From positions 186,001 through 250,000 of the forward strand of contig JAJYLN010000001.1 in the NCBI GenBank assembly GCA_021787665.1: DNA of 64,000 bases. Direction: 5' to 3'. Origin of the DNA: a bacterium (GTDB lineage: Bacteria > JAMCPX01). The notes beneath the pieces are model-generated. The model had not been told where the DNA came from and made no database searches. It was given only the letters and a program-made list of their open reading frames with translations. Each line of letters opens with the position of its first letter. Position 1 is the first letter of the stretch. Below, piece by piece: positions 830 through 21,221 of this stretch. The translations under genes and the position numbers were made by a program.

Positions 830-2242
830 TTAATCATGTATCCTATTGATGGAGAGATTTTTAAAGATGAACCGGCGAAACAGGTAAGACATGAGTGTAC
901 CTAATCTCACGATCTTGAACATATTCATAAATTTTTGGGGCCTCAGATAAAATCTCATGTATGCCTTCCTCTGGAGTTTCTCAAGCTGATTTATGCTGAC
1001 CGTATCGAGCTCGAGCGACCTGCCGACGTGCTTGTTGTAATCCCTCCAATCGTTCGAGATCATCTTTAATCCTCCCCTGCCGTCTTTAACCATATCGATA
1101 AGTCCTGTCCCGGGAAACGGCGTTAGGACCGAAAACAATGCAGCGTCAATATCGAGGGAGTTAGCAAGATCGATAGTCCGATTGATGGAATCGACCGTAT
1201 CATAGGGGAGACCTATGATAAAATTGGCGTATATATCGATGCCTGCGTCCTTTGTCCATGTTATAGCATTTTTTATCTCTTCTATCTTAAGACCTTTCAC
1301 GGCCTTATCGAGTATCGCCTGATCACCCGACTCTATACCATAAGAAATTATCCTGCATCCAGCCTGCTGCATTTTTTTGAGCAGTGGTGCATGAACGACA
1401 TCGGCCCGTGTTGCGCAGTTCCATGTAATCTCTTTATGAATGCCCGTTTTGATCAATTCGTCGCAGATCGATTCTGCCCGCTTCATATTGATGGTAAAGG
1501 TATCATCCATAAACGTTATCCTGTTGGCATGATACACTTCAATATCTCTTATTATCTCATTGATAACCAAGTGCACATCTCTATACCTTATAATCTTGCC
1601 TATGGTCCTAAAACAGAAGACGCAATCGTAAGGGCAGCCTCTCGATGTCATGACCGGCAGCTCGGTGATTTTATGGTTCGGGAATACATAAAAAGGCCGG
1701 TATAATTTCAAGTCGAAACCTTCAAAATCGAGAGGAGGAAGTGCATTGACGTCGAGATACGGTCTTTGAGGAGTTACCACGACATCCTTGCCGTCCCTAT
1801 AAGCGATACCCTGGATACTTCTGAGGACATCCCTGTTGTTAGAAGCTATTGCCTTCAGCAGTTCCGGGAGTGTCAGTTCGCCCTCGCCATAGACAAGGTA
1901 GTCAAAGCTGCTGAATTCTTTCAGTGTTTGCTCCGGCAGCGCAGAGGCATGATAACCACCGAGTATCGTCTTGACCTCCGGCGACATCTCTTTAATTTTT
2001 TTTGCAAGTAATGACGCTTCGTAGACCTGCTCTGTCAGGGCTGTTAGACCTACGATATCCGGCTTTATCTTCTGTATCCTCTTTATCAGTTCCGCTCGTG
2101 AAAGACCTTCTGCAATGGCATCTATACTAGTAACATCGTATCCCTTTTGTCTCAGAATGGTAGCCATATAAATTATACCGATATGCGGAACAGACCAGCC
2201 GCCACGTGTAGAAAATGGCGGAATAATGAAAAGTATTTTCAT
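830..2242 (-). CDS. B12-binding radical SAM protein
   Basis: A full-length 470-residue protein. Residues 1-145 form the cobalamin-binding domain (start MKILFIIPPF, GGYHASALPEQTL, YGEGELTLPELL); there is no DXHXXG cobalamin-ligating motif, as in many members of this family. The radical SAM domain has CPYDCVFC (CX3CX2C) near residue 205, then GKIIRYRD, FMDDTFT, GIESGDQ and PFPGTGL. The protein closely resembles the one encoded at 7203-8594 through most of its length, so the two are paralogues. It sits downstream of the rSAM gene at 2327-3910 on the same strand with an 84-base spacer. Family knowledge suggests methyl transfer or ring chemistry on a lipid or glycan; the substrate is unknown. Confidence 0.9.
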   Translation of the reverse strand: MKILFIIPPFSTRGGWSVPHIGIIYMATILRQKGYDVTSIDAIAEGLSRAELIKRIQKIKPDIVGLTALTEQVYEASLLAKKIKEMSPEVKTILGGYHASALPEQTLKEFSSFDYLVYGEGELTLPELLKAIASNNRDVLRSIQGIAYRDGKDVVVTPQRPYLDVNALPPLDFEGFDLKLYRPFYVFPNHKITELPVMTSRGCPYDCVFCFRTIGKIIRYRDVHLVINEIIRDIEVYHANRITFMDDTFTINMKRAESICDELIKTGIHKEITWNCATRADVVHAPLLKKMQQAGCRIISYGIESGDQAILDKAVKGLKIEEIKNAITWTKDAGIDIYANFIIGLPYDTVDSINRTIDLANSLDIDAALFSVLTPFPGTGLIDMVKDGRGGLKMISNDWRDYNKHVGRSLELDTVSINQLEKLQRKAYMRFYLRPQKFMNMFKIVRLGTLMSYLFRRFIFKNLSINRIHD

Positions 2243-2326: not shown

Positions 2327-3910
2327 CTATTTAAACAATCTTTTCAGGACAAAAGAAGCAAGGGTGTCTATGTACCTGAGGGAATAGCTTGGTCTGAATT
2401 TGGTGGCGACATGAGAAACAGAGCATAGGTATTTGCCGAAATTCGGATTTATAAAACAGTAATTTTTACATTGAACCTTCATCATTTCTTTTTCCGAAGA
2501 GCCAGCCAGACAATATCCTCTGCTGAACCATGACCGTGCATGGTCTTTGTAATAATCAAGGAAGGTCTTTCTCGTTAAGACGATATTAAATTTCTCTGGA
2601 TAATAAAACATGGGTGAAGCCGGGTCAAGTTCCAGCGGGACAGTAATGACCTGTTTTATATTATTGTATTTTTTGAGCTGCTTCTGCAAGGTGACTGTTT
2701 CCTGAATATCCTTTCCTGTTTCCATCGGCAGTCCTCCGGAAAAATAAATACCTGTATTTACCCCTTTTTTCTCCATATAGCTCAGGGTCTGCAAAAAATC
2801 AGCGTTGGTATAAAAATAACCTTTATTGATTTTTCTCAGCCTCTCGGATCCGCTTTCCGGCGAGATAATTATCTGGGAATCTGCGGTGAACGTGGCGCTG
2901 AACTCGTCTATGAAATCAACGGACGGCAGCGCGTATGCGTTGAAGTTGTAAGTTATCTTGAGCTTATGATCTCGTATGGTTTTAAAAAGCTCTAAAAAGA
3001 ATTTCCTCGAGTTTTGTTCGGGAAGATCAAAATCCGTGTTGAAGCTTTTAAAACCCCACTGCAGACCTTCTCTTATGTTATCTACTATCCTTTCTGGCGA
3101 TCGTAACACGATCCGTGCTCTGCCGTTTATGATACCATTCGCATCATAGCCTCCGCCACAAAAGCTACAATTTGCCGTACAGCCCTTGCCGATCGGGAGA
3201 TACATGGATGCAACAAGGGAGCTCTTATAAATGATATCGTTTATGACCGGACTGGTGTTAAAGTTAAAGAAAAATAACTGCGGATAAAACTTGTAGTTCT
3301 CCATGAGAGAATAATTGCTGTAAGAAGCACTGTCCAATATCTCCTTGGTCGTTACATAATTCTGGGCATTTTGTACAACACTGCCGCTGTTCCGCCTCGT
3401 AAGATTGGGTACCGAAGCCATGTCGCCGCAATTTTTAACGATCTGATCGACTACCGCAAGAAGCGGGACTTCACCATCTCCGGCTATGATTGCATCGATG
3501 AATCCGAAGTTTTCCAGTATCTCGTCTTTAAAAAAGCTCGCTGTGAGACCACCCAGGACCAGAAATGTATCGGGTAAGACCCGCTTTACTTCTTTTGCAA
3601 TCTCGATAGCGTCAAACGACTGGTGATGCCAATGGAGCGCAACACCTACAACCTTTGGCTTTGTAGACAGGAGGTATTCCCGCAGAGAAAAGTCCTTTGT
3701 GAATAGCCTCTCGATACCGAGGTGCAAGACCCTGCTTTTGAATCCATGCCTTTGCAAGAAGTCTGCCATAAAAAGAAGGCCCATGGGCATAAGATTAATA
3801 AATTGTACCTTATTGAAGGGGTGTACATAATGGCTGAATTTGGGGGTATGTATAAGAAGGCAATCGAGGTTTCTGCTGTTATCATTGGGTGATACTCGTA
3901 CCATACTCAT
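2327..3910 (-). CDS. B12-binding radical SAM protein, divergent type
   Basis: A 527-residue protein with an N-terminal B12-binding-like domain (residues about 10-190: LLIHTPKFS, VLGGLTASFF, GDGEVPLL) and a radical SAM domain with CTANCSFC (CX3CX2C) near residue 265, then SPESGSERLR and a C-terminal cysteine-containing tail (CKNYCF, near residue 490). It is clearly less similar to the other rSAM proteins here than they are to one another. The start is either the ATG at 3910 or the third codon ATG at 3904; neither has a strong Shine-Dalgarno, and the 10-bp palindrome GACACGTGTC lies 5 bases upstream. A promoter and a leader ORF lie about 210-285 bases upstream. Its function is unknown beyond the family. 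Confidence 0.87.
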   Translation of the reverse strand: MSMVRVSPNDNSRNLDCLLIHTPKFSHYVHPFNKVQFINLMPMGLLFMADFLQRHGFKSRVLHLGIERLFTKDFSLREYLLSTKPKVVGVALHWHHQSFDAIEIAKEVKRVLPDTFLVLGGLTASFFKDEILENFGFIDAIIAGDGEVPLLAVVDQIVKNCGDMASVPNLTRRNSGSVVQNAQNYVTTKEILDSASYSNYSLMENYKFYPQLFFFNFNTSPVINDIIYKSSLVASMYLPIGKGCTANCSFCGGGYDANGIINGRARIVLRSPERIVDNIREGLQWGFKSFNTDFDLPEQNSRKFFLELFKTIRDHKLKITYNFNAYALPSVDFIDEFSATFTADSQIIISPESGSERLRKINKGYFYTNADFLQTLSYMEKKGVNTGIYFSGGLPMETGKDIQETVTLQKQLKKYNNIKQVITVPLELDPASPMFYYPEKFNIVLTRKTFLDYYKDHARSWFSRGYCLAGSSEKEMMKVQCKNYCFINPNFGKYLCSVSHVATKFRPSYSLRYIDTLASFVLKRLFK

Positions 3911-4194: not shown

Positions 4195-4309
4195 ATAGTT
4201 TTTTTCTCTCTTGTTTTTTTCTCTCTATTTCCAATTTATCTTGCTCATCAAAGGGCTCTATACTACGATACTTGTACAGATATGATTACACAGGGGGAAT
4301 GTGCTCATA

Positions 4310-6856
4310 ATGAAACACCTTAAGAGGTTCTTGCCATACCTGATAGTCGCCCTCGTCTCTTATCTTTATCTGTCCCTGTACAGCCATTACCTGTTCGCCA
4401 CCAACCCGGGCAACGATGAGGGCCTGATGAGCGGGGCATGGAGGATCATGCACGGACAGATGATCTACAGGGACTTCTTCCAGGTGTTCTTCCCGGGGGA
4501 CTTCTACCTCATGGCATGGCTGTACAGACTGTTCGGATTCGGCATCGTAGTGTCCAACTATATCATTATTATCATGTCGTGTATAATCAGCGTCCTGCTG
4601 TATCATATATCGCGGCTCGTCATAAAAAGGTGGTATGCAGTCCTCGCGCCACTGCTCTTCCTGACCTTCGGATACACGGAATGGTTCACCCTCAACTATT
4701 ATATCCCATCTACCATTACGCTCCTGCTGGCCCTCATAGTCCTCGACAGGTTTATGCACACCGACAAGAGTCTCTATCTGTATCTAGCCGGCCTGCTCGC
4801 CGGGCTGACCATGTTGATATTGCAGTCAACCGGCGTATACATGATAGTTATCCTCACTCCTCTTATCTATTTCACCTATGTGCCAGGTACAGCAGGGAGA
4901 GATCAACAATCGGTCAGACGTCAGAGGCTCTATGCATCGCTGAAATTCCTATCAGGCGCAGCTGTGCCTTGTGTTCTCATGCTGGTGTTTCTGGCGGCAA
5001 ACGGGGCATTTCTGCCTTTCTTAAGGGACCAATACACATTGTTTGTCCTGTATCCAAAAATAAACCTGTTCTATATGAAGCCGGTCGCATCGCTAAGGTA
5101 TATTGTAGAGCCGCTGAAGCTGCTCTTTATTTTCACGCTTGCGGCAAGCCTTTTCCTCCTGTTCACAAAAAGATATCATTTACCTGAAGAACTTCTACTC
5201 TGTATTGGCAATATTATATTATTTTTAAATGTTCCTCATCACATTATGCTGGTCATTCCGGGAACTACCTATATAAACATGGGGTTGAGCATCGTATTCT
5301 CCGTGTATATCCTCTGGAGACTTGAGGAACTTCTCAAGAGGATTAGTTGGGAGCCAATCTTTCGGATTATCAGGAGGCTGTTCAGTATAGCGGCTTTTGC
5401 AGGTATTGGGGCAGTATGCGTACTTATGTTCCAAAACATGAGATTGATCGACACACAGGCCTATCATTTCAAACTTATGCATGAGCACCTATGGTCCTTC
5501 GACAGATACGGCGCATCAACGCTTGTTGACTTCATCAGTAAGGCCGACAGGATCATAGGCAGTGACAGAAATGTACTCGCCTATCCATTTGCTCCTCTCC
5601 TCTATTCTGTCATGAATATAGAAAATCCCACGGGATATGATTCAATTCCAAGCTTCGGAGTTAAGTATGGTGCCCCGAGATTCATGCTTGCAGACATCGT
5701 CAACAAGCTCAAAGCTTCGCACAATAAATATATAATTATACACAATTGGTCTTACTCGACACTTATGCGCCTCTATAAAATGAACAATATGAAGTTCCAT
5801 CCCAATGTATTGGAAAAATTTATATTGGAGCACTATCAAAGTGTCCTCACTATCGGTAATTTCTCCTTGTTAAAGTTTACGACCTCTGCACGTGCCTCTT
5901 TTGTGGAAGTCCTTCTTATCGGCGCAGTCAAAAGCACAGGTGTTTTTACCCTTCTTGCGGATAACAACAAGACCACTCCGACCCTCTTAGACCTTTTAAA
6001 ATATGCAGGCGTGGTCAGACAAAGAGCCGATTTCAGCAACATAATTATAATCCGGAACGGCGAAGAGCGGATCGTAGACTTGACCAAGTATTTTCAAACA
6101 GGCGATCAACGCTATAACCCGCGTCTGTATGATCATACTGTGATCTATGTTCCGGGCAACACTGCCCCTCTCGATTCAAAACGAAACATGAAGCTCATTG
6201 AAGATTTTCTTAAAATAGACTTTCAGCAGAGCAGCCACATACTCATGAACAGCAATGGAATTCATTCAGGCAATATCGTTCAGAAGACCATATCTGTTAC
6301 TATTGCCGGCGACGTGCAGCATGCAGGTAGCTTTACGCTCGACAAGGGTGCGAGGCTTGCGAATGCCTTCACCATGACAGGCAGGCACCTGCAAACAGCG
6401 GATTACAGCAAAATCGTCATCCTGCGGCATGACCATTTGATAAAGGCGAACCTTTTACGCTATGTACGGACAAAGAACCATGTCTATAACCCGATTCTCC
6501 ATGACAACGATTTTATTTATTTCCCCGTCGTCAGATACAAGACCATCTCGATAATCATTATCGGCGCTGTGAAGCATACCGGGGACTTCACCTTGCGCGA
6601 GCATACGAGACTGGCAGATACCTTTACCCTGACCGGCGGACCGCTTCCCGCATCGAACCTCAGCCGCATCGCTATCCTGAGACACGGCAGACTGATAACA
6701 ACTAACTTTCTAAACTATATACAGATGAAGAATGCTGCCGACAACCCACTTCTGCAGAATAATGATATTGTGTATGTGCCCAAGGGCAACGAGCGTCCTG
6801 ATACCGACTACATTAAACAGCTGGTACATGGCACCACCTCTGGTGCCGGGAAATAG
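4310..6856 (+). CDS. GT-C type membrane glycosyltransferase fused to three SLBB domains
   Basis: An 848-residue protein. Residues 1-390 are a polytopic membrane region with an acidic DEG motif in the first loop and a FFPGDFYLMAWLY segment, as in PMT_2/ArnT-like GT-C enzymes that use polyprenyl-phosphate sugars. About residues 390-530 are a soluble, presumably periplasmic, domain. Three SLBB-type beta-grasp domains follow at about 530-620, 660-742 and 744-828, each with the signature I-I-G-V-x-H-x-G-x-F-T-L, an A/G-rich helix and N-N-D-I-V-Y-V-P. SLBB domains normally belong to Wza-like polysaccharide export proteins, so this fusion is unusual. The start is taken at ATG 4310 (GGGGG 12 bases upstream); a GTG at 4301 is possible but too close to the Shine-Dalgarno. 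The N-terminal part is homologous to the proteins at 8605 and 19497. Confidence 0.85.
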   Translation: MKHLKRFLPYLIVALVSYLYLSLYSHYLFATNPGNDEGLMSGAWRIMHGQMIYRDFFQVFFPGDFYLMAWLYRLFGFGIVVSNYIIIIMSCIISVLLYHISRLVIKRWYAVLAPLLFLTFGYTEWFTLNYYIPSTITLLLALIVLDRFMHTDKSLYLYLAGLLAGLTMLILQSTGVYMIVILTPLIYFTYVPGTAGRDQQSVRRQRLYASLKFLSGAAVPCVLMLVFLAANGAFLPFLRDQYTLFVLYPKINLFYMKPVASLRYIVEPLKLLFIFTLAASLFLLFTKRYHLPEELLLCIGNIILFLNVPHHIMLVIPGTTYINMGLSIVFSVYILWRLEELLKRISWEPIFRIIRRLFSIAAFAGIGAVCVLMFQNMRLIDTQAYHFKLMHEHLWSFDRYGASTLVDFISKADRIIGSDRNVLAYPFAPLLYSVMNIENPTGYDSIPSFGVKYGAPRFMLADIVNKLKASHNKYIIIHNWSYSTLMRLYKMNNMKFHPNVLEKFILEHYQSVLTIGNFSLLKFTTSARASFVEVLLIGAVKSTGVFTLLADNNKTTPTLLDLLKYAGVVRQRADFSNIIIIRNGEERIVDLTKYFQTGDQRYNPRLYDHTVIYVPGNTAPLDSKRNMKLIEDFLKIDFQQSSHILMNSNGIHSGNIVQKTISVTIAGDVQHAGSFTLDKGARLANAFTMTGRHLQTADYSKIVILRHDHLIKANLLRYVRTKNHVYNPILHDNDFIYFPVVRYKTISIIIIGAVKHTGDFTLREHTRLADTFTLTGGPLPASNLSRIAILRHGRLITTNFLNYIQMKNAADNPLLQNNDIVYVPKGNERPDTDYIKQLVHGTTSGAGK
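6290..6735 (+). repeat. SLBB-encoding DNA repeat, copy A
   Basis: This stretch encodes the second and third SLBB domains and is highly similar at DNA level to about 10774-11219 in the next GT-C gene (offset 4484). Bases 6374-6471 are identical to 10858-10955 (98 of 98), including synonymous positions, while flanking parts diverge. This indicates recent duplication or gene conversion. Confidence 0.85.
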
Positions 6857-7202: not shown

Positions 7203-8594
7203 ATGAAAATACTCTTTATAATACCTCCGTTTTTGTCAGAGGAAAAAGCCTTTACGCATACCCCCCAGGTTGTCCTGTATCTCGGAATGGCCTACCTTTC
7301 TGCATTTTTAAAACATGAAAAATACGAAGTCCATATTATTGATGCAATTGCTGAAGGGCTATCGAAACAAGCGCTTCTCAAAAAGGTTGCCGAAATAAAG
7401 CCTGCTGTTGTTGGCCTGACTTCTCCGACACAGCAAATCTACGATGCAGCGGTTGTCGCAAAAGAAATCAAAGATATGTTTCCAGAGATTAAAACAATTA
7501 TTGGAGGCTATCATGCATCTGCCCTACCAGAGCAAACACTAAAAGAATTTAATAGCTTTGACTATCTTTTGTACGGTGAAGGCGAATTGACTCTGCCAGA
7601 ATTGCTGGCAGCAATAACTACCGACAAGGATGATATACTTAAAAATATAAAAGGGATCGTCTATAGAGACGGTAATAGAATTATTGTAAACCCTCCACGA
7701 CCGTATATTGACATAAATGTGTTACCGATGCCCGACTTCGACGGCTTTAATTTAAACCTATACAAACCATTTTATACCTTTTTTAATAAAAAACTATTGG
7801 AGCTTCCCATCATGACATCAAGGGGTTGTCCTTATAATTGTGTTTTTTGTTTTAGAACAAATGGTAAGAGCGTAAGGTATAGAAATTTGCAGTCAGTGAT
7901 AGATGAGATAAAGAGAGACATAGAAATTTATCATATTAGCCATCTTCTGTTCGTCGATGAAACATTTACTTTGAGTATGAAGCGTGCCGATGCCCTGTGC
8001 GATGAATTGATCAGGACTGGTATAAACAAACAGATAACGTGGGGATGCGAGACGAGGGCTGATCTCGTTGATGAAGCATTGCTCAAGAAAATGAAGCAGG
8101 CAGGATGCAGATTCATATCTTACGGAGCTGATTCAGGGGATCAGGAGATACTCAATTATGCTGAAAAGAGCATGAAGGTGCATGATATTAAGAATGCCGT
8201 GCAATGGACAAAACAGGCTGGCATAGATGTATACACTAATTATGTCATAGGTCTGCCATATGATACTGTTGACACAATAAATAAGACCATAGACTTTGCC
8301 ATAGGGCTTGATCCTACTGGCCTATCATTCACAATATTAACACCGTTTCCAGGGACCGAGGTCGTTGTTATGGCCGAAAACGGTGTGGGTGGATTAAAGA
8401 TACTATCATATGATTGGAGAGATTATGGAAAACAGCTCGGCAGTGCACTTGAACTTGAGAAAATTAGCAGGAAACAACTTGAGAAACTTCAAAGGAAGGC
8501 ATATTTGAAATTTTATACAAATCCAAGGAAAATTGCAACGATGTTTAAAACTGTAGGGCTGCGGGCAATAATATCGTACCTTTCCTATAGATAA
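7203..8594 (+). CDS. B12-binding radical SAM protein
   Basis: A 463-residue paralogue of the protein at 830-2242. The cobalamin-binding domain occupies residues 1-145 (MKILFIIPPF, GGYHASALPEQTL, YGEGELTLPELL) and the radical SAM motif CPYNCVFC lies near residue 210, followed by VDETFT, GADSGDQ and PFPGTE. The gene is noticeably AT-rich compared with the window average, as is the first half of the next gene, suggesting joint acquisition. Only 10 bases separate it from the GT-C/SLBB gene at 8605, so the two are surely co-transcribed and probably act on the same polymer or lipid carrier. The substrate is unknown. Confidence 0.9.
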   Translation: MKILFIIPPFLSEEKAFTHTPQVVLYLGMAYLSAFLKHEKYEVHIIDAIAEGLSKQALLKKVAEIKPAVVGLTSPTQQIYDAAVVAKEIKDMFPEIKTIIGGYHASALPEQTLKEFNSFDYLLYGEGELTLPELLAAITTDKDDILKNIKGIVYRDGNRIIVNPPRPYIDINVLPMPDFDGFNLNLYKPFYTFFNKKLLELPIMTSRGCPYNCVFCFRTNGKSVRYRNLQSVIDEIKRDIEIYHISHLLFVDETFTLSMKRADALCDELIRTGINKQITWGCETRADLVDEALLKKMKQAGCRFISYGADSGDQEILNYAEKSMKVHDIKNAVQWTKQAGIDVYTNYVIGLPYDTVDTINKTIDFAIGLDPTGLSFTILTPFPGTEVVVMAENGVGGLKILSYDWRDYGKQLGSALELEKISRKQLEKLQRKAYLKFYTNPRKIATMFKTVGLRAIISYLSYR

Positions 8595-8604
8595 ATAATA
8601 AAGA

Positions 8605-11340
8605 ATGAACTTTATAAAGAAATTAATACCTTATATTGTAATAATCTTGGCCTCTTATTTTTATCTTATCCATTATGTACATTGGCTATTCCTGCTCAGT
8701 GATATAGATGTAGAACATACAATGGCTGAAGCGTTACGAATAACTAATGGACAGGTAATATATAAAGATTTTTTTGAGATCTTCGCACCAGGTAATTTAT
8801 TTTTGCTTGCGCTCCTTTATAAATTATTTGGATATAGTATTATAGTCACGAATAAAGCCTTAATTGGTATAGATATTATTATCAATGTTTTATTATATCG
8901 TATGGCATACATAGTTATAAAACGATGGTATGCTATAATACCATCTTTCATATTGCTTATTGCTGGCTTTACTCGATGGTTTATCTTTAGTCACTATTGG
9001 ACAACGACTATTACAGTTTTGCTGACACTTATAATGCTAAATAATTATTTTGGTGAACAGGCTGATCTTGCAGATAAACAGCACAGCTTATATCTTTTTT
9101 TGACAGGCTTTTTTGCAGGATTGACAGGGATTTTCTTACAATCGGTAGGTGTGTATACGATACTTACAACAGTTATAATCATTTATTTCAAAACAAAAAA
9201 ATACAAAGGGTTGTTAAACAAATTTCTAATTTTTAGTATTGGCATAATATTACCTGTTGCACTATTTATAGTTTATCTGATTATAAATCATGCATTAATA
9301 TCATTTTTTTATGATCAAATTATATTGTTTCGATATTATTATAGGGTAGCCAATTTTGTATTCTATCCTTGGATGTCATGGTCCAGTATATTTAAGCCGT
9401 TACGATTGTTGCTAGTTATATCTTTTATCATCAGTATGTTATTTATTCTACTTAAAAAAGATAAGCCTACACATGAGCTCTTGCTGTTCGGCGGAAATGT
9501 AATCTTTTTTTTGGCTGCAATACATAGAATATTTGATAAGGAAAAGATTGTAACATCCGACGCTAACACTGCGTTCGCTATTCTACTGCTTGTTTATATC
9601 ATAGGGAAAACACCGGACTACCTTCGAAGGGTCAACAAAAGACTTTCTACCATATCATGCTTAGCTTCAAACATACTCTTGGCAGCTATAAGTGTATTTG
9701 CTGTGTTTACAATGTATAAAAATGTAATGGCTCTACAAAATCACTCATACAGCTTTAATATTAACAATACAGAATATTGGTCATTTAATAAAGAGAAGGC
9801 AGAGAATCTGGTTACTTTTATAAAAAAAATGAAAAGAATAATAGGTGACGACTACCAAGTCTTTCCTTATCCCTTTATAGGCGCTCCCTTTACCCTGCTT
9901 AATCTGCACAACCCGACAAGATATGATACATTTTCGAGTTTTGGAAAAGCAGCAAGTGCCCCCGCATACATGATGAACAATATTATAAAAGATTTAATAC
10001 TTACAAAAACGAAATATATTATAACATTCCATTGGTCACACAGGATCTTAATTTTCTGGTCACAGATGAACGGCGTTGTGTATGAGCCGAATACCTTTGA
10101 GCAGTTCATATGGGACAACTTTAAGGATGTGCTCCATGTTGGCATGTATACGCTCTGGAAACTGAATACACTGGAGCCGGGAGATACGATTGTCATATCA
10201 GTAAAAGGCCATCCTGAACTGAATGAGACTGTCACTGTAGCAGACGATGGCTCTATCACCGGTCCCGACAACGTCACTATGAAGGTGGGAGGGCTACCTC
10301 TGTACGCGGTAAAAGGCCTTTATGCAAGAACAATGGGCAGATACGGCATCCCGCCAGACGATATCCGCGTGAGCCCCTATACGGAGCATCTCTTCAACAC
10401 CTCGCACAATTTTATGACAGCCCTTCCCTCCCCACCAGTATTAGGGGACTGTACCTTCTGGGTCTGGAACCAATCGACATGCTACCAAACGGCAAACGCA
10501 CAATCTATCACTACGAAAACAATCACGATCACCTTGCTTCATACTCCATGGAAAGATAAGAAGCTTGTTATCCCTGACAGGACGAGGCTTATGGACGCAT
10601 TGATTAAGGCTGCAGGGACCCTTCCCTCATCGGCCTTTAAGCGAGTCATCATCATACGTGGAAATACGGTCATAAAGGCAGACCTCCTGCGCTACGAGAG
10701 TGATCACAATCCGCGGGACAATCCCCGGTTAATGAACAACGACATCGTGTATTTAAATGACCGACACAAGACTATCTCGGTATCTGTTTTTGGCGACGTT
10801 AGCCATGCAGGTAGCTTTACGCTCGACGTCGGTGCAAGACTTGCAGACGCCTTTTCAATGACAGGCAGGCACCTGCAAACAGCGGATTACAGCAAAATCG
10901 TCATCCTGCGGCATGACCATTTGATAAAGGCGAACCTTTTACGCTATGTACGGACGAAGAACCAGGTCTATAACCCGATTCTCCATGACAACGATATTAT
11001 TTATTTTCCCGTCGTCAGGCACAAGACCATCTCGGTAATCATCATCGGCGCTGTGAGGCATACCGGTGACTTCACCTTATCCGAGCATGCGAGACTGGCA
11101 GATACCTTTACCCTGACGGGCGGACCGCTGCCCATAGCGAACCTCAGCCGAATCGCTATCCTGAGACACGGCAGGCTGATAAAAACCAATTTTTTATACT
11201 ACATACAGACGAGGAATGCTGCCTACAACTCACTCCTGAAGGATAACGATATTGTGTTTATACCAAATAGTAAGGAGCACCCGGGCATCACCGAAATAAG
11301 AGAAGCCGCAAAGGCATGTATCCCGAAAGAAAAGGAATAA
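8605..11340 (+). CDS. GT-C type membrane glycosyltransferase fused to Poly_export-like and three SLBB domains
   Basis: A 911-residue protein. Residues 1-380 are polytopic and homologous to the proteins at 4310 and 19497 (QVIYKDFFEIFAPGN, VIKRWYAIIPS); 380-515 is a soluble domain. About residues 520-592 read like the Poly_export (PES) motif of Wza-type outer-membrane export proteins: LEPGDTIVISVKGHPEL, then TVADDGSITGP. Three SLBB domains follow at about 638-720, 722-804 and 806-890. The DNA is AT-rich up to about 10130 and then changes abruptly to the GC-richer composition of its neighbours, so the gene looks like a mosaic of an acquired membrane part and a local SLBB tail. It is translationally close to the rSAM gene before it. 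An envelope role in polymer synthesis or export is inferred. Confidence 0.85.
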   Translation: MNFIKKLIPYIVIILASYFYLIHYVHWLFLLSDIDVEHTMAEALRITNGQVIYKDFFEIFAPGNLFLLALLYKLFGYSIIVTNKALIGIDIIINVLLYRMAYIVIKRWYAIIPSFILLIAGFTRWFIFSHYWTTTITVLLTLIMLNNYFGEQADLADKQHSLYLFLTGFFAGLTGIFLQSVGVYTILTTVIIIYFKTKKYKGLLNKFLIFSIGIILPVALFIVYLIINHALISFFYDQIILFRYYYRVANFVFYPWMSWSSIFKPLRLLLVISFIISMLFILLKKDKPTHELLLFGGNVIFFLAAIHRIFDKEKIVTSDANTAFAILLLVYIIGKTPDYLRRVNKRLSTISCLASNILLAAISVFAVFTMYKNVMALQNHSYSFNINNTEYWSFNKEKAENLVTFIKKMKRIIGDDYQVFPYPFIGAPFTLLNLHNPTRYDTFSSFGKAASAPAYMMNNIIKDLILTKTKYIITFHWSHRILIFWSQMNGVVYEPNTFEQFIWDNFKDVLHVGMYTLWKLNTLEPGDTIVISVKGHPELNETVTVADDGSITGPDNVTMKVGGLPLYAVKGLYARTMGRYGIPPDDIRVSPYTEHLFNTSHNFMTALPSPPVLGDCTFWVWNQSTCYQTANAQSITTKTITITLLHTPWKDKKLVIPDRTRLMDALIKAAGTLPSSAFKRVIIIRGNTVIKADLLRYESDHNPRDNPRLMNNDIVYLNDRHKTISVSVFGDVSHAGSFTLDVGARLADAFSMTGRHLQTADYSKIVILRHDHLIKANLLRYVRTKNQVYNPILHDNDIIYFPVVRHKTISVIIIGAVRHTGDFTLSEHARLADTFTLTGGPLPIANLSRIAILRHGRLIKTNFLYYIQTRNAAYNSLLKDNDIVFIPNSKEHPGITEIREAAKACIPKEKE
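10774..11219 (+). repeat. SLBB-encoding DNA repeat, copy B
   Basis: Counterpart of 6290-6735. It contains the 98-base perfect match 10858-10955 and encodes SLBB domains 2 and 3 of the 8605 gene. Confidence 0.85.
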
Positions 11341-14999: not shown

Positions 15000-17361
15000 A
15001 TACAGGCTTTTACTGGCATGCTCTGTCCTTGGAGCAACCCTCCTTATACTCTTTTCGCATGCGATCTTTACCGATAAAATAATGCTTGTGTCCAATTTCC
15101 ATCAGACTAATCCGTTCTTTACGGTAAAGGGCGTATCGGCATTCCCGGTAGAGCCATTCGATACGGTCAATCAGTTTCTGCCGTGGTTCCACTTCGACAG
15201 GGAATCCCTGAGAAACCTCACCCTTCCGCTGTGGAACCCATACAATGGCTGTGGAGCGCCCTACATGGCAAACATGCAGTCCGCATTGTTTTACCCCCTT
15301 AATCTGTTCATATACCTTTTTAACTGGAAATGGGGGCTGCTGCTCCTGTACTTCTTTAAATTCTTTTTAGTCGGGCTTTTCTCATACCTCTATTTGACCG
15401 AGGTTGGTACGGACTATCGCGCAGCGACCGTTGTATCGATAGCCGCCATGTATTCTGGCTTTATGAGCATGTTCGAATTCCAGATGACCGGTGCGGCATT
15501 CTGCTTCTTCCTCGGCTTATGGTCGATAGAGCTCATAGTTCGGCATCCCGATAGATTCAAAGGATATGTTTGGCTCATGATCGGATTTGTCGTTGCCGTG
15601 TTTACAGGGCACCCGGAGATACTGTTCTTCATGACGTTTGTGCTCGCTCTGTATCTTTTAATCAGGCTCTTTGATCAACACGGATTCCATAAAAAGTCAT
15701 ATCTTATTATAGCGAAAACGGGCCTGGTTGCATGCATCGGTGTCCTTATATCGGCAATCCAGTTGCTGCCGTTTATCCAATACTTGCATGCGAGCACGAC
15801 ATTTATATCACGATCATCGGGCACGGCGCCCTTTTACCCTTTCTCGCTAATTCTGCCGGTAGTAGGAAATTTTTTCGCCCAGCATATTATTACCATACAC
15901 ACACCGCAAAACTGGATCAACGCCGGGCTGAACTATATCGGTATCGTATGCTTTCTCTTCGGCATTGCAGGTGTAATGAGCCTTTTCAAAGAGAGGCTCA
16001 TAAAGACCTACTCTGCATTATTCATAGTTACTTTGGCTATACCATTCAATATACCCGTTCTCCACGATATATTCGCCAATATACCTGGCTTTACTGTCGC
16101 TGAAAAGAGCCATTTATGGATATTCTCGGGCTACCTGCTGATGCTCGTAGGAGCAAGATACCTCGATGCCCTCCTCAACCGGAAATGCAGCACGAAGGCA
16201 TTGCACGTAGCGATATACATCACACTATCCATAGTCCTCGCCTTGTTTTTGATGTCCGGGGCCTACTACAGGCTCAATATGCAACTCGTCTACATGGTAT
16301 TACTTATGATCATAGCAGTCCTCTTTGTAACGAAATTAAAGAACAAAAACGCCGTTGCCATACTACTTGGTATTATAACCTTCATACCAACGGCATTCAT
16401 GGCCACCTCTCTATCGCTTCTGGCGCCCCGATACTTTTTCCCGACCAATACCATCATCGACAGGATAAAACAGGATGCATCTATATTCCGTGTAGTCCCT
16501 TTGATGAAAGACGGCATAAAGGCATGGGAACCGGACCTGAACACCTTCTATGGCATAGAAGACCCCAGGAACTACGACACCATGGGTATACGGTGGTACG
16601 ACAAGCTTGTTCTGAGTTCCCTGACCGAGCCAGGCATCATAAACTTTTTGAACGTAAAATATCTTATTTCCCCGGGAGCGGTGGCCCTCGCTCAGGCATC
16701 GGCTTACCGATCACGAATCCCGGAGACTGTACTCAAAAAAAACAACACGATAAGCACCTATGGGAACAGGAATTCCTTCGATATCGATATGTCTGTGCAG
16801 GGATTCAAGGCCGTCGCTTCGGCCAACGGCTTTACGCTTTATGAGAACCCCTCTGTATTCGACAGGGCATTCATGGTCTATGATTACAAGGTAGCTCATA
16901 CCCATGACGAGGCCTTCGACCTTGTAAAGGAGTATGCCTCGCAATTGAGCACGACAGCGGTCGTCTTCAGGGATGAAGCACGGTATACCTCAGGTATACC
17001 TGACGCTGCTGGCGGAGTGCCCACCGGTGCGGCTGTGGGCATAATGCAAGGGAAGACACCGGCCCACAAGGTAGCATTCGAGAAGTACACGCCGAACGAC
17101 ATAAAGATGCGTGTGTCTACTTCTTCACCAGGGCTTCTTGTCATAAGCAATGCTTATTTCCCTGGCTGGCACGCGTACATCGATGGCAAAAAGTCCAAGG
17201 TCATACGAACAGACTATGCGTTTCAGGGGGTATTCGTGCAGAAGGGACGGCATGAGGTAGAGATTGACTATCTGCCCCTGAGCTTTATCATCGGGCTCAT
17301 CCTCTCGGGGGTGGGTATCGCGGCTGTCCCTTTGCTCTATATCCTGTGGTTCCGGTCATGA
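14989..17361 (+). CDS. YfhO-family membrane protein
   Basis: A 790-residue protein with about 12-13 membrane segments and a C-terminal extracytoplasmic domain. The N-terminal loop LPLWNPYNGCGAPYMANMQS and the C-terminal segment YFPGWHAYIDGK, followed by QGVFVQKGRHEVE and a last membrane helix, are characteristic of the YfhO family (putative GT-C proteins; Gram-positive relatives glycosylate lipoteichoic acid or help bacteriocin production). In this Gram-negative setting it more likely decorates an envelope polymer; that is an inference. It overlaps the preceding gene by 11 bases and the next rSAM gene by four (ATGA). Confidence 0.85.
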   Translation: MSHRYRLLLACSVLGATLLILFSHAIFTDKIMLVSNFHQTNPFFTVKGVSAFPVEPFDTVNQFLPWFHFDRESLRNLTLPLWNPYNGCGAPYMANMQSALFYPLNLFIYLFNWKWGLLLLYFFKFFLVGLFSYLYLTEVGTDYRAATVVSIAAMYSGFMSMFEFQMTGAAFCFFLGLWSIELIVRHPDRFKGYVWLMIGFVVAVFTGHPEILFFMTFVLALYLLIRLFDQHGFHKKSYLIIAKTGLVACIGVLISAIQLLPFIQYLHASTTFISRSSGTAPFYPFSLILPVVGNFFAQHIITIHTPQNWINAGLNYIGIVCFLFGIAGVMSLFKERLIKTYSALFIVTLAIPFNIPVLHDIFANIPGFTVAEKSHLWIFSGYLLMLVGARYLDALLNRKCSTKALHVAIYITLSIVLALFLMSGAYYRLNMQLVYMVLLMIIAVLFVTKLKNKNAVAILLGIITFIPTAFMATSLSLLAPRYFFPTNTIIDRIKQDASIFRVVPLMKDGIKAWEPDLNTFYGIEDPRNYDTMGIRWYDKLVLSSLTEPGIINFLNVKYLISPGAVALAQASAYRSRIPETVLKKNNTISTYGNRNSFDIDMSVQGFKAVASANGFTLYENPSVFDRAFMVYDYKVAHTHDEAFDLVKEYASQLSTTAVVFRDEARYTSGIPDAAGGVPTGAAVGIMQGKTPAHKVAFEKYTPNDIKMRVSTSSPGLLVISNAYFPGWHAYIDGKKSKVIRTDYAFQGVFVQKGRHEVEIDYLPLSFIIGLILSGVGIAAVPLLYILWFRS

Positions 17362-18839
17362 ACGTCCTATTGATCCAGCCCCCGGCATACCTAAGTAAGT
17401 CAAGAGAGCTCGGACAGAAACAATTGAGCACGAATATAGGTCTTGCCTATATCGCTTCTTATATCAGGGAGAAGGGTACAGAGGTGAGCATACACGATGC
17501 AACCATCCGGAAATTCGATCCGTCCGTCTTCAGGGAGATCATACGGGAGCGGCGGCCCGGCATCGTGGGTATCTCCGCCTTCACGACCCAAATAGCTGAT
17601 GCGAGCTACCTTGCAGGGCTGATTAAATCGATAGACAGCCGTATCACCACGGTCATCGGCGGCGCGCACGCGAGTGCGATACCCGAGCAGACGCTCGAAG
17701 AATTCGGGGCGTTCGATTATGCCGTCTTCGGCGAGGGTGAAGAGACATTCTATAGATTGATCCTGTACCTGTCCGGGAAAGGCGTGTTCGATGACAAGGG
17801 GCTGTGCTACAGGGCTGACGGACATATAAGAAAAGGTAGTAACAGGCCTTTGATTGAAAATATCGACAGCATACCGATGCCGGCATTCGACCTATTCACC
17901 CTGGCGCACTATAAGCCGCAGTATTCGCATAACAGGGGATTGTCCCTGCCGATACTGACGTCAAGGGGCTGCCCATACGGATGCACATTCTGCTCCGGGC
18001 CACTCGGCAGGAGGATAAGGTTCCACTCGGTCGAGCGGATCATAGGCGAGCTCAAGGCAGACATTGCCGTGTACCATCCACAACAGATCCTCGTCGCTGA
18101 CGATACATTCACGGTAAATAAAGCCAAGGTCATCGATCTCTGCGACCGAATCGTCCGGGAAGGCATCCATCGGGAGGTCGAGTTTATATGCGAAACGCGA
18201 GTCGATCTTGTGGACAGGGAAATTTTCGAATCGATGAAAAGGGCCGGCTTCAGAAGCGTCAGCTTCGGTATAGAGTCAGGTGACGCGTACATACTTGATA
18301 AGGCCCTGAAGAAGATAACGCCTGCACAGGCCCGCAGCGCTGTTGCTGCTGCAAAACAGGCCGGGCTGGAGGCAGACGGTAATTTTATCCTCGGACTACC
18401 TTATGATAACAAGGAATCAATCATGAAGACTATAGGCTTTGCGTGTTCGCTGCCCCTTGACTATGCCAGTTTCTTCCTGCTCGTCCCGTACCCCGGGACA
18501 GAGGCAGCAAGGATGGCAGAAAACGACGAGGGTGGCCTGGTGCTCCTGTCGAAGGACTGGACCAGGTACGGCAAGCAGACTGGCGGTGTTCTGACCCTGT
18601 CGGGTATGAGCTACGACAGGCTTAAGGCCTATCAACTGTATGCTTACCTCAGGTTTTATCTCCATCCAAGGCGGTTCTTTAATATACTGAAAAGGGTCAC
18701 ACCATTGACCATTGTCCTGTTTGCGCTTCAGATGGTAAAGACCTTTTTTAGAAAGGGACCAGCACCCCCCTCTATACGAGCATCGAATATAAGTTCGACC
18801 AATTCGCAGGACCGCCCCTGTCCTCCGTCATCTTCTTAA
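17358..18839 (+). CDS. B12-binding radical SAM protein with extended C-terminus
   Basis: A 493-residue protein from ATG 17358, which overlaps the preceding stop as ATGA; a GTG at 17346 is less likely. The cobalamin domain (MNVLLIQPP, GGAHASAIPEQTL, FGEGEETF) is followed by CPYGCTFC (CX3CX2C) near residue 205, then DDTFT, GIESGD and PYPGTE. The last 25 or so residues (after TFFRK) are proline/serine-rich, unlike any paralogue, and are translated from DNA that on the other strand is the end of a truncated rSAM gene. The native stop was therefore probably lost at a deletion junction near 18770. The core of the enzyme looks intact. Confidence 0.88.
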   Translation: MNVLLIQPPAYLSKSRELGQKQLSTNIGLAYIASYIREKGTEVSIHDATIRKFDPSVFREIIRERRPGIVGISAFTTQIADASYLAGLIKSIDSRITTVIGGAHASAIPEQTLEEFGAFDYAVFGEGEETFYRLILYLSGKGVFDDKGLCYRADGHIRKGSNRPLIENIDSIPMPAFDLFTLAHYKPQYSHNRGLSLPILTSRGCPYGCTFCSGPLGRRIRFHSVERIIGELKADIAVYHPQQILVADDTFTVNKAKVIDLCDRIVREGIHREVEFICETRVDLVDREIFESMKRAGFRSVSFGIESGDAYILDKALKKITPAQARSAVAAAKQAGLEADGNFILGLPYDNKESIMKTIGFACSLPLDYASFFLLVPYPGTEAARMAENDEGGLVLLSKDWTRYGKQTGGVLTLSGMSYDRLKAYQLYAYLRFYLHPRRFFNILKRVTPLTIVLFALQMVKTFFRKGPAPPSIRASNISSTNSQDRPCPPSSS

Positions 18840-19500
18840 ACGACGGATTGAAGCAATACGAGCATGCGTTCGGGCATCCCCTGCCACTGATGAACCTCTT
18901 CAGAGGGAAGTCCCGTATGAACCTGTATCTGTAGTAAACCTCTCTGTCCGGCAGGGGCATCGCGTTGAGATCGGTAAGTGGTCCCATGGAGTTCTTATAT
19001 AGGGTGCCCCCATGCTTCACCCAAATACTGTGAACAGAGGTAATATCGCCACCGGACCCGAGCCTCTGCAGAAACTCCGGTACTGCATAGTCAGCCTCTC
19101 CCCTGAGTATCGCATCGACGCCTTCTTCGTCGATAGCATCGTTGAAGAACGTCGGGTACGTGCCTGTAAGCATGCACAGGACCCGGGGCATGGCCGATTT
19201 TATCCTCCGGGTCATAGCTATGCCCCATTGCGGCCTTATAATGGAGGTCGGGATGATAACCACGGACGGATTGTACGCGGCTGCAACCTTCAGGAAGTCG
19301 CCTTCCTCCCTTTCGATCAGTACCCGGTAGGGATAGCCCTGCTCCCTCAGAATGCCCGCAAGCTCGGTAAGGGCAAGCGACTCATTGATGGCGTTGTCCT
19401 GTACGAACAGGACTCTTACCGGCGATTTAGGCCTAACATCTTCGTTTATCATGTTATAGTATAGCATGCTGGCATTAAAATTTCCTGTTAACTTGTTCAA
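18772..19500 (-). CDS. C-terminally truncated B12-binding radical SAM protein (probable pseudogene)
   Basis: Only 242 residues. A B12-binding-like domain (VRVLFVQDNAI, EADYAVPEFL) leads to the radical SAM motif CPNACSYC near residue 213, and the frame ends about 25 residues later, so almost the whole catalytic barrel is missing (paralogues are about 460-530 residues). Its 3' end overlaps the opposite-strand rSAM gene by 68 bases. The start overlaps the stop of the upstream GT-C gene by four bases (19497-19500), so it was once the second gene of a GT-C/rSAM operon. It is unlikely to be active unless the short form has another role. Confidence 0.75.
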   Translation of the reverse strand: MNKLTGNFNASMLYYNMINEDVRPKSPVRVLFVQDNAINESLALTELAGILREQGYPYRVLIEREEGDFLKVAAAYNPSVVIIPTSIIRPQWGIAMTRRIKSAMPRVLCMLTGTYPTFFNDAIDEEGVDAILRGEADYAVPEFLQRLGSGGDITSVHSIWVKHGGTLYKNSMGPLTDLNAMPLPDREVYYRYRFIRDFPLKRFISGRGCPNACSYCFNPSFKKMTEDRGGPANWSNLYSMLV

Positions 19501-21221
19501 GGCACTGGATTTTTCATCTGCAAGAGCATAAAGCCATCGTTTGAAATAACGGGCGTGTAATGACCCAGTATGAAATTATCGAGTATATTCGGCGTATACT
19601 GCATGCCGAGCGAGCGGGAGACTGCCCGGAACACATTGGGTGCCCAGTCATAGGTTATAACGAACCGTACCGGCATGCTTTTCAAACGTCGTATGGCATC
19701 CACGAGTATACTATCGGGGGTACCTTTATCATTCCCGAGCTTTATCAGAATATCGTACTTTAGGGGATCCTGCAGATTAAGCAGGGTATAAAGGATGGGG
19801 GAGTAAGGATAGACAAGCGCCGTGCGGTCCCCGCCCATGATCCGTTCCGCTTTTCCGGAAAAGTCAGCCAGCGCTTTACCCATCTGTCTGTTGAATGTCC
19901 ACAACCGTACGTTGTTGACGGTAAAATGATAGGCATCCTTCTGTACTCGCTTCGCGCCGGCGAAAAGCGCGGAGCAGATAACTATGATTATGATGGTTGC
20001 AACGATGCCGATAAGCCTTTCCACCCCTTTATACAACAGCACCCATAATCTCGGCTTCAGATAGCCGAGTAACAGCGTGAACAGCCAAACATACATTATG
20101 ATAGCACAAGGCACATTAACAGGCACAACGCTCATGGGGTTATAGAGTAGTCTCTGCCCTGTATTTAAAAACAGGACTGCACAACCTATAAACAGTATTA
20201 TGTGCTCGGGGGGGGTATTTTTTTTAAACGCCAGAAAGTACAAACTGACGATGCCTGGAACACTGAACAAAAGCACAAGCATGAGCACCTTTTGGGGCCA
20301 TCCTGTTACAACCCCCCGAAAGAGCATGTCCAACGAAAAGGTCGTAAACTCCCATGCCCGTGCTGCAAGGACCTCGTTCTGCACGAAATCGTGGAACGCA
20401 CCCTTGGCGGCCATATAGGAAAAAGCGACTGTCAAGACAGAAAAGACAGCTATCGTGAAGTAACCCATGGGTCTGAGGCCGGGCCATCGCACGGCATTTT
20501 TCGGACCTTTCTTTGTCCCCTGCTCTCCCCCGGCCGTACCGTCTATCCCCGTCCCGTCCGGCTCCATGCCCCCTCGGTATCTGCCCCTGCTATCCATAAA
20601 AATAACGAACAGAAACACACCCAGGGCTATCACCCCCTTCGTTTGAAGAAACAGCGTCGTGAGCCCCACACAGGCGCCCGCCCCCCATAGGGCCACGATC
20701 GATCGCCGGTCGAGATATGCATAGAGACAGATCAATGAAGCGAAGAACATCGCCATACTGTTTACATAATGGCTGTATCCCATGACGGCTGTGCTTCCAA
20801 AGACAAGGAACAGCAAGGGCGGTATGACGGCGAACCATCTCTTGACGATGATCCTCGACAGACGGTAGATGAGCAGGTCCGAGACGACGTCTATGATCAC
20901 TACGAACTCACGGGTAACAGCGAAGCTGTAGCCGAATATCTTGTAAACGAGCGCAAGGAGGTAGTAATTGCCCGGGAATAGAATGGCACCGATGTCCTTG
21001 TACAGCACCTTGCCGTGCAATATCTGATAGGCCCTGTACGGGAACATCCCCTCGTCTTCCGTGGGTGTCGGAAGATAATATTTGTACAGGTGCAGGTAGG
21101 TATAGCTGAGGAGAGCTATGATGATGTACGGTACGACCCGCCGCAATCCCAGATGAGCTCTGTTATACAGAGACCCCTGATTCTTTTTATCGTGTTTTCC
21201 GGTGAGGGTCATAACATGCAT
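19497..21221 (-). CDS. GT-C type membrane protein without SLBB tail
   Basis: A 574-residue polytopic protein homologous to the membrane halves of the proteins at 4310 and 8605: TEDEGMFPYRAYQILHGK, ILFPGNYYLLALVYKIFGY and IIVKRWFAVIPPL match closely. The acidic DEG in the first loop is retained. A glycine-rich low-complexity cytoplasmic loop (about residues 215-240) is peculiar to this copy. It ends with the soluble domain and has no SLBB domains. The start may be ATG 21221 or the internal ATG four codons on; neither has a good ribosome-binding site. It is coupled to the truncated rSAM gene downstream. Confidence 0.8.
   Translation of the reverse strand: MHVMTLTGKHDKKNQGSLYNRAHLGLRRVVPYIIIALLSYTYLHLYKYYLPTPTEDEGMFPYRAYQILHGKVLYKDIGAILFPGNYYLLALVYKIFGYSFAVTREFVVIIDVVSDLLIYRLSRIIVKRWFAVIPPLLFLVFGSTAVMGYSHYVNSMAMFFASLICLYAYLDRRSIVALWGAGACVGLTTLFLQTKGVIALGVFLFVIFMDSRGRYRGGMEPDGTGIDGTAGGEQGTKKGPKNAVRWPGLRPMGYFTIAVFSVLTVAFSYMAAKGAFHDFVQNEVLAARAWEFTTFSLDMLFRGVVTGWPQKVLMLVLLFSVPGIVSLYFLAFKKNTPPEHIILFIGCAVLFLNTGQRLLYNPMSVVPVNVPCAIIMYVWLFTLLLGYLKPRLWVLLYKGVERLIGIVATIIIIVICSALFAGAKRVQKDAYHFTVNNVRLWTFNRQMGKALADFSGKAERIMGGDRTALVYPYSPILYTLLNLQDPLKYDILIKLGNDKGTPDSILVDAIRRLKSMPVRFVITYDWAPNVFRAVSRSLGMQYTPNILDNFILGHYTPVISNDGFMLLQMKNPVP

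Follow-up and report, generated by a model that had tools for sequence, protein, structure and literature searches.

Proteins of the OPX type are defined by a Poly_export-SLBB architecture. The available text of an OPX survey describes most of them as lipoproteins or secreted proteins, in which Poly_export-SLBB is followed by Wza_C, by GfcC, or by nothing more (PMC9603273). Class 3 OPX proteins lack Wza_C, and those of Myxococcus are, in the same text, paired with a beta-barrel (PMC9603273). The D1 domain of Wza, which is its Poly_export (PES) domain, faces the inner-membrane partner and docks on Wzc, where D99 and E102 make contact, according to the accessible part of a report on this complex (PMC12881504). 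SLBB domains are ligand-binding, and some SLBB proteins bind B12, as stated in the part of the source available (PMC1796856). Neither a transferase fusion nor an OPX protein anchored by a membrane enzyme is mentioned in the available text of the OPX survey (PMC9603273). Literature searches for GT-C with SLBB, for Poly_export with PMT_2, and with broader terms found no such fusions among papers that were mostly open, subscription papers being largely outside reach.

The window analyzed here, a stretch of 64,000 nucleotides of bacterial DNA, encodes a 911-residue protein in which a PES domain and three SLBB domains follow a GT-C membrane half (Table 1). Its OPX-type module is anchored by a membrane enzyme, in contrast to the lipoprotein and secreted forms in the available text of the OPX survey (PMC9603273).

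Table 1. Positions of the fusion gene, its parts, and related genes. Coordinates refer to the window unless locus L013 is named.
Feature	Position	Strand	Basis
GT-C/PES/SLBB x3 fusion protein, 911 aa (P0001)	8605..11340	+	ORF, domain search, relatives
GT-C half, residues 1 to ~515, TM helices and predicted periplasmic C-terminal subdomain	8605..10149	+	Paralogue alignment; predicted topology
Poly_export (PES) domain, residues 521-593, KGHPE loop	10165..10383	+	PF02563; model fit to WzaB and Wza
Linker, residues 594-636, Cys616 and Cys626	10384..10512	+	Alignment; both Cys kept in G001 relative
SLBB 1, residues 637-719, most divergent of three	10513..10761	+	Pfam, local SLBB profile
SLBB 2, residues 721-803	10765..11013	+	Pfam, local SLBB profile
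SLBB 3, residues 806-888	11020..11268	+	Pfam, local SLBB profile
Tail segment common with gene 4301-6856	10765..11278	+	DNA and protein alignment
Matching tail segment in window 851-aa gene	6281..6794	+	DNA and protein alignment
GT-C with three SLBBs, without PES, 851 aa	4301..6856	+	PMT_2 33.0 bits, SLBB_2 54.4 bits
B12-binding radical SAM protein, directly upstream of fusion gene	7203..8594	+	Pfam
Membrane protein of another GT-C-like type, weak TPR, one C-terminal SLBB, 739 aa	11419..13638	+	SLBB_2 31.8 bits
Tail-less GT-C paralogue, 574 aa	19497..21221	-	PMT_2 32.3 bits; outside tailed clade in tree
Second GT-C/PES/SLBB protein, 826 aa, same genome and contig, ~2 kb upstream of window	L013:15582-18062	-	

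Domain Architecture of the Fusion Protein

An earlier note on this DNA had described one protein that joins an inner-membrane sugar transferase half to nearly the whole soluble part of an export channel subunit, with a Poly_export-like segment followed by three SLBB domains. The reading frame, the coordinates, and both sequence strings quoted there are all present as given. A search with PF02563 matches residues 522-577 of the protein (profile positions 8-63 of 77) with an E value of 4.5e-8 and 33.6 bits, above the gathering score of 28 bits, and SLBB_2 reaches 44.6 bits over three separate stretches against a cut-off of 27 bits, bearing out both domain calls. As a reciprocal check, the PES half alone of a profile made from the five fusion junctions described below finds the PES of other proteins in 34 of 383 fusion-free genomes. 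Scores of the tail against the NCBIfam exporter models (EpsE, PRK15078, and XrtA exporter) lie far below the curated cut-offs, which indicates that the tail is a relative of the exporters rather than an ordinary member.

Several features usual in exporters are missing from the protein. Its PES is without the usual P-L-V-G stretch, the outer-membrane helix Wza_C (PF18412) is absent by Pfam both here and in the whole genome of the window, GfcC (PF06251) is not among the Pfam matches of the protein at E values up to 10, and no lipobox was found in it. The PES starts at residue 521 and is preceded by a membrane protein in which a scan shows 9 to 12 hydrophobic peaks. The protein thus departs from the OPX arrangement, in which an N-terminal secretion signal or lipobox goes with a PES near the N-terminus.

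The fold of the PES segment was examined in a model built from a two-row alignment, in which this segment has a pLDDT of 69-81 and the SLBBs are poor (about 41-61). The modelled PES superimposes on that of Myxococcus WzaB (9n9a) with a Z score of 11.2 and an rmsd of 1.5 Å over 72 residues, and on that of a Wza (7xff_B) with a Z score of 10.2 and an rmsd of 1.7 Å over 73 residues; unrelated rows in the same comparison score 6.7 and below. In a full-length model from five rows, the GT-C half is poor (mean pLDDT, 51.5), the SLBB blocks average 54-84, and Wza occupies each of the first six rows of the Foldseek search. These models give no meaningful orientation between domains and deviate by more than 20 Å from whole Wza. 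A profile of the five fused proteins finds Wza (2j58) with an E value of 4.4e-12 for the whole sequence and is colinear with it across the PES and both SLBBs; the SLBB pair contributes 42 bits, and the PES is colinear but weak, at 6 bits. The junction profile by itself gave nothing significant in a PDB sequence search. The fold match and the profile matches together indicate that residues 521-593 are a real PES domain. A lack of PES similarity or an unrelated fold was looked for by profile and model and did not occur; the segment is modelled with the fold of the WzaB and Wza PES. The anatomy proposed in the note, a transferase half with a near-complete soluble export part, is likewise supported by the colinearity of PES-SLBB-SLBB with Wza. 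In the alignment, the DHPE of Wza lies opposite the KGHPE of the fused PES, and, allowing for an offset in numbering, Wza D99 and E102 probably fall in this DHPE loop.

The GT-C half of the 911-residue protein has no match to PMT_2 (PF13231) at E values up to 10. Its paralogues of 851 and 574 residues, to which it is 36% and 27% identical, match this family at the scores in Table 1, and the GT-C identity of the fusion protein is assigned through them; the kinship of its membrane half to the PMT_2 GT-Cs is thus indirect. These PMT_2, or GT39-like, GT-Cs are of the ArnT and PMT type. Glu37 and Asp55 in the first periplasmic loop are invariant in nine aligned relatives.

The averaged hydropathy of nine relatives shows 12 peaks. 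Our 11-TM reading, with the N-terminus inside, sets aside the peak at residue 73, which we take, by comparison with GT-C structures, to be a periplasmic interface helix. In this reading, the cytosolic loops carry 13.3 Lys+Arg per 51 residues and the periplasmic loops 5.2 per 91, a positive-inside distribution that places the PES-SLBB tail on the periplasmic side. The linker cysteines, both kept in the G001 relative, fit a periplasmic location, and Cys616 and Cys626 may form a disulfide between the PES and the first SLBB. The tail of the 911-residue protein is therefore probably periplasmic.

Related Fusions and Their Distribution

The earlier note spoke of one such protein, a count that has to be revised: the same genome encodes a second fusion, and two related genomes encode three more. 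The PF02563 cut-off is exceeded three times in the genome of the window, by its OPX protein on contig C17, by the 911-residue protein, and by the 826-residue protein. The other fusions are an 851-residue protein in G001 (31.5 bits to PF02563) and proteins of 808 and 804 residues in G004, whose PES domains fall below the cut-off at 25.4 and 24.9 bits, respectively, so that three of the five fused proteins are above it. All five have the same junction: L-x-x-G-D, which forms the first strand of the PES, continues from the strand that closes the periplasmic subdomain of the GT-C (LWKL or similar). The KGHPE loop is kept in three of the five; the HPE loop is not kept in the two of G004.

Most tailed paralogues have no PES, and the number of SLBBs per paralogue ranges from 1 to 4. 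In the tail-less paralogue at 19497-21221, nothing follows the periplasmic subdomain, and the protein ends near the point at which the PES of the 911-residue protein starts. The 739-residue membrane protein is a relative of a 798-residue protein in G001. SLBB tails are also found by BLAST on short single-TM proteins of 374, 361, and 273 residues in the same genomes; the last has no Pfam match at E values up to 0.5. These short proteins (L013:10136-11260, L048:7155-8240, and L052:11072-11893) consist of a single TM helix, a conserved domain of ~160 residues for which no Pfam match over cut-off was found, and one or two SLBBs. That SLBB tails occur both on another type of GT-C-like protein and on these short proteins suggests that the SLBB tail is the common tag.

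The junction profile, applied to 465 distinct genomes, detected the fusion in 3, all from the family to which the genome of the window belongs; this family is represented by 9 genomes. The 465 genomes comprise a set of 386 (three matches over both halves), a set of 82 from another phylum, and a further set of 3, with overlaps removed. No match over both halves was obtained in the 82 genomes, three of which are also among the 386, at a stricter E value of 1e-6, or in the set of 3, all of which are also among the 386. These searches are blind to fusions onto unrelated membrane proteins. PF02563 itself matches in 256 of the 386 genomes, and none of 20 long-frame PES proteins fetched from among the matches listed has a multi-TM N-terminus. 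A pattern-limited scan of named genomes returned 24 loci; the tail is covered by only two, both from G001, and the other 22 cover GT-C residues only. No extra OPX sequences were found in the viral contigs scanned.

Origin and Exchange of the Tail

A tree of 19 GT-C halves, from which fragments (L058 and a 291-aa piece) were left out and in which one long branch was flagged, unites the five PES-bearing proteins and an SLBB-only 639-residue protein of G001 in a single clade (100/99). The tailed set excludes most tail-less GT-Cs; a 551-residue tail-less protein of G004 lies within it, beside the 851-residue protein of the window and a 947-residue protein. This placement suggests that the tail was added to an existing GT-C. 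On the same tree, the distribution of the PES takes two changes to explain, in the simplest case a gain and a later loss. The 639-residue protein seems to have lost its PES, because it is placed inside the PES clade; it reads LWELNTLVPKDVL where the 911-residue protein P0001 reads LWKLNTLEPGDTI, and LWELNTLVPKDVL is possibly the stump of the lost domain. As the tree has it, an existing GT-C captured an exporter module and one copy later lost the PES. The proposal in the note of a route from exporter to synthase accessory is thereby reversed: the transferase gained an exporter tail. The note also suggested a coupled synthesis-export device, which may or may not apply. In a PES tree of 59 rows and 75 columns, from which duplicates (L002, L003, L009, and L037) and domains under ~60 residues were left out, the five fused PES domains group together (SH-aLRT 96); the tree does not resolve their nearest OPX relative.

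The tails have histories that differ from those of the enzymes to which they are joined. The last two SLBBs of the 911-residue protein and of the 851-residue protein of the window are 86.8% identical in DNA over 514 nt, whereas the GT-C halves are 36% identical in amino acids. Conversely, the GT-C half of the latter is 70% identical to that of its closest counterpart, the 947-residue protein of another species (G001), and their tails are 74.9% identical in DNA. In the SLBB tree, into which just one of the two SLBBs of the genome's own OPX protein passed the threshold, S2 and S3 of the 911-residue protein pair with S2 and S3 of the 851-residue protein of the window (100/99 and 98/94). The 804- and 808-residue proteins of G004 lie on different GT-C branches, yet their PES domains pair together (97), and the two genes align at 70% over a stretch of 906 nt that starts where the GT-C ends. 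Because tail kinship does not follow GT-C kinship, tails have been copied between genes of one genome, by tail exchange or gene conversion. A shared partner would explain why the tails are maintained; alternatively, the copying may be plain recombination between neighboring genes. A further mosaic is seen in G004 at the edge of a contig, in a GT-C fragment that shares 388 nt with one paralogue at 88% DNA identity and 366 nt with another paralogue's tail at 79% (L051:7671-8546 and L055:426-2081).

Gene Neighborhood

Besides GT-C genes, the cluster carries YfhO-like proteins, a family-2 glycosyltransferase, an asparagine synthase, and a FadL-like porin. The family-2 glycosyltransferase could supply a polyprenyl-linked sugar. 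Many B12-binding radical SAM proteins are interleaved with the GT-C and YfhO-like genes, in the window (830-2242, 2327-3910, 7203-8594, and 17346-18839) and at L013:5847-7286 and 18066-19355. The sole canonical OPX protein of the genome (325-328 aa; 85.5-87.5 bits to PF02563) is on contig C17, where it adjoins the genome's only Wzz-type co-polymerase, with a beta-barrel beside them. No OPX protein, Wzz-type co-polymerase, Wza_C, or BBP2-type barrel was found in the cluster of the fusion gene.

In the related genomes, a PES-bearing GT-C gene adjoins kdsB and pyrG, on different sides (L045:7264-9682 in G001 and L051:412-4570 in G004); the G004 neighborhood additionally holds kdsA and a KdsD/KpsF-type isomerase. 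A link of these GT-Cs to KDO was set aside, because in the genome of the window kdsB lies on another contig than the fusion gene. An IS110-family transposase gene (L045:12888-14111) lies 0.6 kb downstream of the G001 fusion gene, and L013:8848-9807 encodes a 319-residue protein of near-identical tandem repeats of ~25 residues (ASDRRFEASEKRFEAIESELKAMRE).

Possible Function of the Tail

Our preferred reading, to which we give a probability of about 0.45, is that the tail is a docking and glycan-binding module that gathers the tailed GT-Cs on a glycan or export assembly. In this reading, the periplasmic tail of an inner-membrane GT-C is a captured OPX protein of the Wza type, reduced to its soluble part. 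The GT-C half probably uses a polyprenyl-phosphate sugar as donor and passes the sugar on to an acceptor in the periplasm. The PES would sit just above the membrane, at the level where the PES of Wza meets the co-polymerase Wzc, with the SLBBs stacked outward, and the tail itself would not span the outer membrane. The tail would hold the 911-residue GT-C and the other tailed GT-Cs of the cell on one glycan/export assembly, and sugars could thereby be added while the chain leaves. We infer the periplasmic side, the catalysis, the docking, and the ligand in this scheme, through which sugar-chain synthesis and export may be physically linked. Support comes from the PES fold and Pfam score, the colinearity with Wza, the loop charges that put the tail in the periplasm, the SLBB tails on other proteins of the same genomes, the tail exchange, the docking of D1 on Wzc, and the family-2 glycosyltransferase in the cluster. 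The reading is weakened by the location of the Wzz-type and OPX genes on C17 rather than in the cluster, by a PES that is optional and, in both G004 copies, below the Pfam cut-off and without the HPE loop, and by a GT-C half that lacks a PMT_2 match, is poorly modelled, and shows 12 hydropathy peaks against the 11 TM helices proposed.

The tail might instead act only as a lectin-like module for processivity or acceptor binding, in which the SLBBs hold the growing glycan or a lipid-linked acceptor and the PES is a leftover spacer with no link to export. The SLBB is indeed the common part, with the PES confined to one clade, weak in G004, and apparently lost once, and SLBBs are described as ligand-binding in the available part of the source (PMC1796856). 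But the PES fold is preserved, as is the KGHPE loop of three among the five proteins, beyond what a spacer would need, and we consider this explanation a close rival that is less likely than docking.

A true channel is improbable. Here, the PES-SLBB tails would form a ring as in Wza, with the GT-Cs at its base, and the conduit would lead to an outer-membrane beta-barrel, as for class 3 OPX proteins. The intact PES fold and the Wza-like domain order accord with such a ring, class 3 OPX proteins also lack Wza_C and are paired with beta-barrels in the available survey text (PMC9603273), and a barrel of this kind lies beside the canonical OPX gene of the genome. Against these points, the PES is dispensable, paralogues differ in how many SLBBs they carry (1 to 4), neither a BBP2-type barrel nor a co-polymerase is seen in the cluster, and ~11 TM helices per subunit would crowd the ring. 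A variant that we regard as a long shot is a mixed ring or stack, in which different GT-Cs of one cell, bearing interchangeable exporter-derived tails, form a conduit of polymer-finishing enzymes. If this variant were true, it would define an OPX class anchored in the membrane, with a single machine for the synthesis, decoration, and export of the polymer, and the constant copying of tails from gene to gene would maintain compatibility among the subunits.

A role of the SLBB tail in binding cobalamin, or some other small cofactor, for the neighboring B12-dependent radical SAM enzymes is very improbable; several such genes do adjoin, and some SLBB proteins bind B12 according to the accessible part of the source (PMC1796856), but the SLBB sequences match the exporter family, and the radical SAM enzymes are cytosolic while the tail is probably periplasmic. 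The assemblies are draft metagenomes, but chance or an artefact of assembly or annotation that fused two genes is all but ruled out by the curated cut-offs, the reciprocal profile, the fold match, and unbroken frames with the same junction in five proteins of three genomes, whose assemblies would all have to share the error.

The coupling of periplasmic transferases to export is, in our judgment, an open question for many polymers. The natural transferase-exporter fusion and the swapped tails make physical coupling directly testable, through the partner of the tail and through rings.

Comparison with Known Systems

The fusion protein shares with Wza and other OPX proteins a PES followed by 2-3 SLBBs in colinear order, with PES folds that agree to 1.5-1.7 Å. 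It differs in what precedes them, a polytopic GT-C in place of a signal peptide or lipobox, and in the lack of Wza_C, GfcC, and the P-L-V-G stretch. Class 1 OPX proteins (Wza) end in the Wza_C helix and class 2 proteins (KpsD) carry a GfcC domain, both of which the fusion lacks. Class 3 proteins (WzaX, WzaS, and WzaB), which consist of Poly_export-SLBB(1-n) only, have the same soluble architecture, likewise without an outer-membrane helix, and include WzaB, the nearest fold match of the fused PES. They are mostly lipoproteins or secreted in the available survey text, whereas the fusion is anchored in the membrane by an enzyme (PMC9603273). From the side of the transferases, the PMT_2/GT39-like GT-Cs have a paralogous membrane half, whose acidic first-loop residues are kept in the fusion, and the SLBB-bearing GT-Cs of 851 (window), 947, and 639 residues, all of this lineage, share a homologous GT-C half and an SLBB tail, with the PES absent. 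Finally, an inner-membrane GT-C with a PES above it and outward-directed SLBBs is arranged with the polarity that Wza has over Wzc.
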